Part shown: positions 43,861-47,544 of the stretch, piece after piece
Layout of the letters: each line of letters begins with the position of its first letter
Numbering within the stretch: position 1 is the first letter of the stretch
Source of the DNA: a bacterium
GTDB taxonomy: Bacteria; Actinomycetota; Acidimicrobiia; Acidimicrobiales; Bin134
Length of the DNA stretch: 64,000 nucleotides
Direction of reading: 5' to 3'
NCBI GenBank assembly: GCA_026709025.1
Contig: JAPOTT010000029.1
Location: forward strand, 22,231 to 86,230
Program-made: the position numbers and the translations under genes
The notes under the pieces: model-generated
Seen by the model: only the letters and a program-made list of their open reading frames with translations
Told to the model about the DNA's origin: nothing
The model's database searches: none

Positions 43861-43941
43861 CCCCATACGGACGCTGGCTGAACGACTCCCACGTTCAGCC
43901 AGCGTTGCCGCGTTATGGGGCTGGATGCTGGTTTTTTTTTT
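43861..43941. terminator. Large near-palindromic hairpin followed by a T10 run
   Basis: ccccata-cgg-acgctggctgaacg-actccca-cgttcagccagcgt-tg-ccg-cg-ttatgggg (paired as 14 bp + 3 bp + 7 bp), then tttttttttt at 43932-43941. Confidence 0.7.
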
Positions 43942-45263: not shown

Positions 45264-45719
45264 TTGCTATTACATCTGAGGAGGTTGACAATGGCAACGA
45301 GTGAACCTATTGGTGACAGACGGCGTTTGGCGCTGATGTTGCGTTTGAACGAAGTTTTGGGAGAAGAGGAGGCTTCAACCATCATGGAGAGCCTGCCTCC
45401 CACTATTTGGCAGAACATTGCCACTAAGGATGATCTGAATGATCTTGCGGATCGTCTTTGCGCTCAATTTGACAGTAAGTTTGCGAAGGTTGATGCTGAG
45501 TTCGCGAAGGTTGATGGCGAGTTCGCGAAGGTTAATGCGAAGGTTGATGGCGGGTTCGCGAAGGTTGATGCTGAGTTTGCGTTGATCCGCGGGGAGATGG
45601 AAAAGAACAAGGGCGAGATAATGCAGATGATGGCTAGCCAAACTCGCACAATCATTTTGGCGTTGACGGGGTTTGCTGTGACGATTTGGATTTCTTTGCT
45701 AGTGGTGGGCATCACCTAA
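45264..45719 (+). CDS. Heptad-repeat coiled-coil protein with C-terminal TM helix (start probably 45291)
   Basis: FAKVDAEFAKVDGEFAKVNAKVDGGFAKVDAEFALIRGE repeats, then TIILALTGFAVTIWISLLVVGIT. Confidence 0.7.
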   Translation: MLLHLRRLTMATSEPIGDRRRLALMLRLNEVLGEEEASTIMESLPPTIWQNIATKDDLNDLADRLCAQFDSKFAKVDAEFAKVDGEFAKVNAKVDGGFAKVDAEFALIRGEMEKNKGEIMQMMASQTRTIILALTGFAVTIWISLLVVGIT

Positions 45720-45957
45720 CCGCGTTATTGGCTTATACCTTCCACTGTCCGTACGCGACACAGCTGACCCGCGGTCAGTCATAGCTCGGCCATAGAATAC
45801 GAACACAACCACAACCCAACACCACAAAACCAACCCCTCCACAAAAAGGGGGCACCTCAGAAGGTAACGCTAAGTACAGCGTGTGCTTGTGCCTGGCTGC
45901 CATAAGTTGAGCAATTCGTAAAGCAAAATGTGCATAATTATCTGCTAACGTGATGGT

Positions 45958-46916
45958 ATGTCTGACGCGGTGCTGACAGCCCCTCCCGTAGACATCGAAG
46001 CACTGTCGATCTCGTTGCGATGGCCTAATACAAAAGTTTCTTGCCCGCACTGCGGCGAATCCCGCGTCTCGCAACAGTCGGCAGGTGCTCGCCGCTGCTG
46101 GCGCTGCAAGCAGTGCCGCCGTAGTTTTACGGTCACCACCGGCACCAAACTCCATGCGTCAAAGCTCACGCTGAACGACTGGTGGAACGCCGCTCATACA
46201 GAAGACGACAGCGCAGCCAGCATGGCAGCGCTACTAGGGACAAGCCGAGTCACCGCCAGACGGGTGAGCCGCATTGTGCGGTCTTGTGGGCTGCCTGTAG
46301 GCGAGCGGCGATTCGCTGCCCTTCTACAGAAGAGCGACCCTTATCAAGAGACGACTAAGCCGTGGCTGCAGTGGTCAGAGGCGCAACGTCGAGTCTTCAC
46401 AGCGGTGCGTAGCTACATCGGGGGGGGGGGGCAGCGCTCTGGGCGATATCGGAAGCGGCCGACGTATCGGAGGGCCACGCTCGCCGATGCTTAGACCGCC
46501 TCAAGACTGAAGGGTTTGTGAAACACACGCAGAAGAAGAATCTGTGGGGTTACGGCTTCGTGCAAGTAAAGGTTTGGGAACTAGAACTCAACGAGCAAAC
46601 GATCCACGCCATGATGCATCTCCCGTATAAGCCACTGCCGCCCCCGCAGGAGGTGCCTACCGCTGTGCCTCCCGTCTTCTGGTCGGTGTTTTGGTCTGGT
46701 TCTTCAGCGGACACGCTACGGCTCCCTGAAGACGGTACTCAGATCGCAGAAGCGATGTTGAGCGTCCGTGACCCTTTGGCTCGAATCTGGGCGTTGAATC
46801 ATGTGCCAGTGTCAGCTTTGGAAGAGTTGCGCTCTATGCGCGGTTATGACACAGGCGAGATAGCAGCAACTCTGGATGCTGCTATCAGTAGGCGGAGCCG
46901 TGCCTGCAATCGATAG
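45958..46916 (+). CDS. Split gene: IS1595-like zinc-ribbon + winged-helix, AbiE-partner-like protein interrupted by G12 tract (ORFs 45958-46494 and 46518-46916)
   Basis: N-part 'SCPHCGESRVSQQSAGARRCWRCKQCRRSFTVTTGTKLHASKLTLNDWW'; after the G-tract a different frame reads GAALWAISEAADVSEGHARRCLDRLKTEGFVKHTQKKNLWGYGF... without stop to 46916. Confidence 0.75.
46420..46431 (+). repeat. Homopolymeric G12 tract inside coding sequence
   Basis: acatcGGGGGGGGGGGGcagcg. Confidence 0.95.
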
Positions 46917-47544
46917 CTACGAAGACGTTCTCTCTTCTAACTTGCGCGAAGTATGGCCGGTGCTGGCAGCCACAGTGCGCCGCTTGAAAGGATCGCTAGT
47001 AGGCGGAACCGCTCTAGCAACACAACTGCGCCACCGTCAATCGTTCGATCTCGATTACATGACAACTGTTTCATTCTCTGGCCGAGCTTTGCTTAGGAAA
47101 TTGCAACGGTTTACTAGTTTGCCGTGCGAAAGCACGGTCGCTGAAACAGATTATCTGGAGGTCAATGTGAACGACGTTGCTGTTCAAATCTTTAGCGTTC
47201 TGAGCCGGGGTACAAATCCAGGCCATGTGAAACAGTTAGCTGCACCGACACTGATCGACGGCCTCTCTGTGGCCTCTCTGCCCGATCTATTGGCTATGAA
47301 ACTCGATGTCATCATGTACCGCCCGAAACTGCGCGACTATATCGACATTGCCGCCATAGATCGCTCAACCATCTTAACCATTGAGGACGGTCTCTCCTTG
47401 CACGCTGAACGATACGGCGTGGATATATACGGTCATGATACTCGACAGATCATCCGCCTACTTGAATCACCCGGCAAGCTACAAGCCGACAGAGTGTTTG
47501 GAACCGAGGCCATCACCGCAGCCAAGCGAAATAGTTGTGACTGA
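46900..47544 (+). CDS. AbiEii-type nucleotidyltransferase toxin
   Basis: 'SLVGGTALATQLRHRQSFDLDYMT' (GG[T]AL...R.S.DLD); GTG start behind aggcgg, overlapping the upstream stop (ORF track start 46876 is the alternative). Confidence 0.8.
   Translation: MPAIDSYEDVLSSNLREVWPVLAATVRRLKGSLVGGTALATQLRHRQSFDLDYMTTVSFSGRALLRKLQRFTSLPCESTVAETDYLEVNVNDVAVQIFSVLSRGTNPGHVKQLAAPTLIDGLSVASLPDLLAMKLDVIMYRPKLRDYIDIAAIDRSTILTIEDGLSLHAERYGVDIYGHDTRQIIRLLESPGKLQADRVFGTEAITAAKRNSCD

Follow-up and report, generated by a model that had tools for sequence, protein, structure and literature searches.

A coding poly-G tract in a regulator-nucleotidyltransferase gene pair as a likely element of a phase-variable defence repertoire in an acidimicrobial genome

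The 64-kb stretch of DNA analysed here (referred to as the window) contains a two-gene module in which the upstream gene carries 12 consecutive G and the downstream gene encodes an AbiEii-type nucleotidyltransferase (NTase). The module comprises the following features:

45958 to 46494, forward strand: regulator gene in its putative 12-G OFF form, 178 aa, consisting of 154 N-terminal aa and 24 out-of-frame residues from the tract onward
46012 to 46122, forward strand: IS1595-type transposase zinc ribbon, residues 19-55 (PF12760, E = 2.4e-8; found in 15/15 homologues)
46420 to 46431, forward strand: poly-G tract of 12, in the loop between winged-helix helices 1 and 2 in a homologue model
46432 to 46916, forward strand: remainder of the regulator in frame 0, with the rest of the winged helix and a conserved C-terminal domain; stop TAG at 46914-46916
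46900 to 47544, forward strand: intact AbiEii/MenT-type NTase (PF08843, E = 1.1e-8; MenT1 fold match), with its most likely start

No other run of G or C in the window exceeds 7. G runs with lengths of 4, 5, 6, and 7 occur 169, 52, 12, and 1 times, respectively, followed by the single run of 12, for which base composition alone gives an expectation of 0.027 and which lies so far beyond this distribution that we rejected a chance origin. The count of 12 derives from a draft assembly (56 contigs, some N gaps), in which homopolymer lengths can be off. With 12 G, the upstream ORF, which is in frame 1, stops at 46494, and with 11 G, the third frame likewise stops shortly past the tract. Frame 0 is open after the tract to 46913, and the regulator would therefore have 318 aa with 10 G or 319 aa with 13 G (154 aa, 3 or 4 Gly, and 161 aa). 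The first-pass annotation, which was made from the sequence alone, had placed the tract in this ORF and proposed that 10 or 13 G would give one protein of about 320 aa overlapping the AbiEii-type gene; the run count and frame check confirmed both points. The regulator gene contains no other stops on either side of the tract and is homologous throughout. Thus, as in an SSR locus, a coding homopolymer sets the frame of a gene that is otherwise intact on both sides.

Profile searches identified Zn_ribbon_IS1595 in the N part of the regulator, and Pfam searches gave HTH_IclR/MarR matches in most of 15 regulator homologues, while the best structure matches were to MarR/ZitR folds with E values of only about 5e-3. 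These matches support two earlier proposals, i.e., a transposase-type zinc ribbon in the upstream protein and a winged helix after the tract. In this architecture, the zinc ribbon is first, the winged helix is central, and the conserved C-terminal domain (VPPxFWSxFWSG...MRGYD) is of no known family. The suggestion that the upstream gene is an AbiEi variant did not hold: AbiEi is absent among the best 25 of the 56 Pfam families matched by the 15 homologues at E values up to 1, and the order of zinc ribbon and central wHTH is a different one. With no AbiEi model among these matches of the upstream protein, only the toxin links the pair to AbiE; judged by the partner protein, the pair is not AbiE, but its toxin is an AbiEii-type NTase. 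None of the viral contigs searched encodes the regulator. Upstream of the gene, we found no operator-like inverted-repeat pair beyond one 13-nt imperfect palindrome (45754-45773). Farther upstream, positions 45264-45719 encode a small protein with coding tandem repeats of 33 nt and 21 nt, a coiled coil, and a membrane tail.

Full-length regulator homologues were found in MAGs of related Acidimicrobiia, and each is one uninterrupted frame. This supports the first-pass reading of the split as a frameshift at the tract and shows that the gene is otherwise conserved. L114 and L115, the closest homologues, have 65-67% identity to the window regulator in the N part and 57-59% in the C part. Divergence is higher in the C part, where L114 and L115 share 73% with each other, than in the N part or the toxin, and this greater divergence fits either decay or diversification. 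At the tract site, L114 and L115 read SHHLKGAGTNEIAHTASVS, and the window regulator with 10 G would read SYIGGGAALWAISEAADVS, which is of equal length. Because the homologues are unbroken and the two closest match the 10-G length, the assembled regulator appears to be the OFF form of a real gene. In a structural model of the homologue L040 (mean pLDDT 81, pTM 0.41), helices H155-166 and H173-180 flank the tract site, and an extra glycine in this loop between the first two winged-helix helices should be tolerated. All regulator homologues compared lack a G tract at this site and have an ordinary non-G linker instead. A conserved non-G linker together with a lack of length variation had been named beforehand as evidence against phase variation, and the first half of this was found.

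The NTase matches PF08843 with 35.8 bits, compared with a curated cut-off of 22.5. DUF1814 NTases have four motifs (I-IV: hGG...DhD with Arg in motif II, KLxxxxxR, and +DxxD) (PMC3985639), and all four are present in the window NTase (LVGGTALATQLRHRQSFDLDYM, KLDVIMYR, RDYID). The closest PDB fold to its AlphaFold model (pLDDT 87) is MenT1 of Mycobacterium tuberculosis (8an5/8an4, E = 1.1e-6); a PDB sequence search returned no relative, and the relation is visible by fold search. The profile match, motifs, and MenT/AbiEii fold bear out the original assignment of the partner as an AbiEii-type NTase. Based on homologues beginning with MxxID, the most likely start of the toxin is GTG 46900 rather than ATG 46876 of the ORF list. 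The GTG start yields MPAIDSYEDVLSSNLREVWPV, which aligns with the MAEIDAWSDILSPEMREVWPI type of homologue, and results in a 17-nt overlap of the toxin with the regulator stop. Because of this overlap, ribosomes that translate the regulator in full would be expected to arrive at the toxin start.

Among the genomes of the genus and family that were searched, 17/22 have an NTase relative, and several are often present in one genome. In most of the homologous loci, the C-terminal domain of the regulator is found, in one frame, in the gene before the NTase, and complete loci also have the zinc ribbon; cut contigs and a few shorter forms (L053, L059, and L060, for example) depart from this pattern. 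The regulator-first order of an overlapping two-gene operon is also seen in homologues. At three loci of relatives (L123, L124, and L051), the NTase is frameshifted or truncated beside an intact regulator, the reverse of the situation in the window. Under a simple antitoxin-loss model, a broken regulator beside an intact toxin would be harmful unless the toxin is silenced as well. The named homologue contigs belong to MAGs labelled Acidimicrobiia, Acidimicrobiales, or Acidimicrobiaceae, including Candidatus Aldehydirespirator catecholifindens. Judged from isolate names, most of these relatives are sponge-derived, and the source lineage is probably sponge-associated.

The source genome (G000; 2.2 Mb) contains 50 G/C runs of at least 9 and 44 of at least 10, and two T/A runs of at least 10, one of which is the T10 at 43932-43941 in the window. 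We rejected the idea that the genome is error-prone for every homopolymer because T10 is nearly absent. The G/C runs of at least 9 gave about 35 sites with usable flanks, of which about two thirds are intergenic according to codon-usage gene calls, so slippage also occurs outside switch genes. Mismatch repair by NucS is present in the genome, and there is therefore no obvious mismatch-repair loss. Intragenic tract genes were identified using reading frames and HMMs, with membership partly judged by eye. These tracts are almost only in phage-defence genes, i.e., three for HsdM, two for HmaB, and one each for type III Mod, HmaC, and DISARM DrmD:

C4:174031, HsdM (L018): tract of 16, broken
C54:9671, HsdM (L083): tract of 13, in frame in a long intact gene
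C16:22914, HsdM (L032): tract cluster with an assembly gap
C4:95120, type III Mod (L017): tract of 9, in frame
C10:7294, HmaB (L020): tract of 18, broken, with a gap
C12:10911, HmaB (L028): tract of 13, broken
C38:16084, HmaC (L075): tract of 14, in frame in a long intact gene
C49:39418, DISARM DrmD (L079): tract of 9, broken; the next gene is DrmMI
C46:20013, GHKL-like gene (L078): tract of 17, broken; weak PDC-M33A match
PdtaS-like histidine kinase (L026): tract at the last codons

With the window excluded, 8/10 intragenic tract genes are clear defence genes, for which a hand calculation assuming, generously, that defence makes up 10% of the coding sequence gives a probability of about 4e-7. 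An automatic filter for tracts that lie within reading frames kept five tract sites of the source genome, all in defence genes. At C10:7294-7521 (L020), the post-tract HmaB sequence is duplicated across the N gap; this is a scaffolding artefact that could reflect mixed HmaB tract lengths. In five sites of the source genome (L016, L024, L029, L070, and L073) and three of relatives (L133, L314, and L316), poly-C in gene sense directly follows a stop codon; for tracts within 40 nt of stops, a C/G sense bias was not significant overall. Other tracts lie just upstream of or in genes for fibronectin-III/laminin-G or secreted proteins (L030, L077, and L080 in G000; L158, L301, and L323 in relatives), and these are possibly phase-variable surface genes.

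G/C tracts were found throughout the genus, of which two single-contig members carry only 1 and 3 runs of at least 10. When the automatic filter was applied to 129 sites of relatives, nine rows representing eight distinct sites were kept. Three of these encode a type IIG enzyme (L167 in G004, broken), HsdM (L249/L311 in G005), and HmaB (L319 in G016, in frame), while the other five, judged from translations, encode one small protein and four that are secreted or of surface type. At the codon of the G13 tract in G000, HsdM of G001 (L219/L232) shows G12 and G41 with an N gap, and in G005, HsdM has a G11 with a frameshift at codon ~508. HsdM of G005, G010, and G016 has an ordinary linker at the G000/G001 tract codon, and HsdM of G010 and G016 is without a tract. 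Because G000 and G001 share one tract codon and G005 uses another, HsdM tracts occur at two different places across species. G000 and G001 differ in their HsdM tract, and the regulator tract is absent in related species. When an initial batch of tract loci from relatives was searched by tblastn with the tract genes of the source genome, only weak matches to surface proteins were returned; the recurrence in HsdM and HmaB was found in genus-wide protein searches and a second batch of loci. Taken together, the tracts in defence genes of this genome and in the same families of relatives support the phase-variation reading of the first-pass annotation, and the ordinary linker in the regulator homologues speaks against it.

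The chief rival to switching is decay, which we consider unlikely. In this scenario, the genome is prone to the growth of G/C runs, tracts are tolerated in dispensable defence genes, and the regulator is a fresh pseudogene without selected switching. Decay would agree with the small genome (2.2 Mb compared with mostly 3.3-3.8 Mb in the genus), with mainly intergenic tract sites, consistent with removal from essential genes, with the more diverged C part of the regulator, and with the tract-free regulator homologues. However, both parts of the regulator are free of further stops beside an intact toxin, the 13-nt tract of an HsdM gene and the 14-nt tract of HmaC keep these long intact genes in frame, HsdM tracts lie at two different places in related species, and with NucS present there is no obvious repair defect. 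An assembly or sequencing error, in which the tract has a fixed true length of 10 or 13 G and two-colour short reads inflate the runs through poly-G miscalls, is improbable. While many tracts adjoin an N gap or a contig end, long G/C runs are few in the two single-contig genus members, and 10 G is the exact homologue length, the sequence on either side of the window tract aligns to homologues with no codons lost, so an error would hardly have created the tract. Moreover, random miscalls would not choose defence and surface-type genes, and a wrong count would leave the tract, the switch element, in place. Finally, long homopolymers allow slippage and the regulator is conserved on both sides of the tract, as would suit RNA polymerase or ribosome slippage giving a steady share of full-length protein from a fixed 12-G gene, but tract lengths and ON/OFF phases vary between genes, as predicted for slippage at the DNA level, and the homologues have no conserved slippery site, making this the most improbable of the three.

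Switching is favoured over decay because long tracts are in frame in HsdM and HmaC and because HsdM acquired tracts repeatedly. Based on the genome-wide tract distribution and the precedent of pglX in an actinobacterium, it is the most likely reading here, and we consider it likely that the poly-G tract is an SSR contingency locus in a phase-variable defence repertoire, switched by slipped-strand changes in length. In this model, a length change at replication to 10 or 13 G would bring the gene in frame and give the full ~318-aa regulator with zinc ribbon, winged helix, and C-domain, while 11 or 12 G would leave a regulator that ends after helix 1 of the winged helix. Since the end of the regulator gene contains the toxin start, expression of the pair as a whole is probably set by the tract, and the gene overlap suggests that the OFF state would silence regulator and toxin both. 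ON cells would make both proteins and be poised to arrest their own translation or growth upon infection; OFF cells would have a truncated regulator and little toxin. We infer that tract length varies in living cells, that translation of the two genes is coupled, that the NTase is toxic, and that the pair acts in phage defence. More broadly, the immune systems of this genome are probably switched on and off randomly by copying slips, and because about ten genes have intragenic tracts and nearly all function in phage defence, the population would hold a shifting mix of active immune systems. The widest form of this reading, which we consider about as likely as not, is that sponge-associated Acidimicrobiia have a defence phasome in which coding G/C tracts switch each of type I, III, and IIG R-M, DISARM, Hma, and the AbiEii-type pair, the last as a phase-variable toxin-antitoxin module with a domesticated IS1595 zinc-ribbon regulator.

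If switching occurs as proposed, tract switching would extend to symbiont immunity, with one genome having tracts over several defence types and one clonal population holding many immune combinations. This would provide a natural test of whether random defence switching guards a clonal population. Also, 'broken' defence genes in MAGs may then be OFF states, and consensus-genome annotation would therefore undercount defences. A limited literature search, mostly of titles and abstract openings, returned nothing on point for phase-variable AbiE or toxin-antitoxin loci, for phase-variable DISARM, or for phase variation in sponge symbionts or Acidimicrobiia. On our best reading, what is new here is that an NTase toxin-antitoxin-like pair would be subject to SSR phase variation within a wider defence set.

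Most known cases of coding-G-tract switching concern surface and R-M genes of animal-adapted Gram-negatives, and the case known for phage defence is Pgl of Streptomyces. The accounts of PMC12707154 and PMC6321876 describe R-M and surface genes as classical phase-variable classes. The phasomes of Campylobacter, Helicobacter, and Neisseria, as outlined in PMC4965091, PMC6321876, and PMC12707154, resemble the present genome in that their R-M and surface genes hold numerous intragenic G/C tracts, some in frame and some not; however, those species are host-adapted Gram-negatives, while here the tracts are in an actinobacterial group and extend to DISARM, Hma, and the NTase pair. The MenAT systems of Mycobacterium, as presented in PMC10435456, include MenT1, the closest solved fold of the window NTase, and MenT toxins pair with antitoxins from several families; MenA1, however, is a 68-aa protein. 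AbiE type IV systems share with the window a two-gene operon with the regulator first, an overlapping DUF1814/AbiEii NTase, and the four motifs, but the AbiEi antitoxin is of the COG5340 type with an N-terminal wHTH and a CTD (PMC3985639), whereas the window partner matches no AbiEi model and has its winged helix centrally behind a transposase-type zinc ribbon. In Streptomyces coelicolor, the coding G tract of pglX reversibly changes length, according to PMC4365076, which cites Sumby and Smith 2003. By that account, Pgl is likewise a phage-defence operon of an actinobacterium that is switched by the length of a coding G tract, and it includes a toxin/antitoxin pair; in Pgl, a methyltransferase is switched by an 8-G tract, while here a tract of 12 G lies in a DNA-binding-type regulator of an NTase pair.
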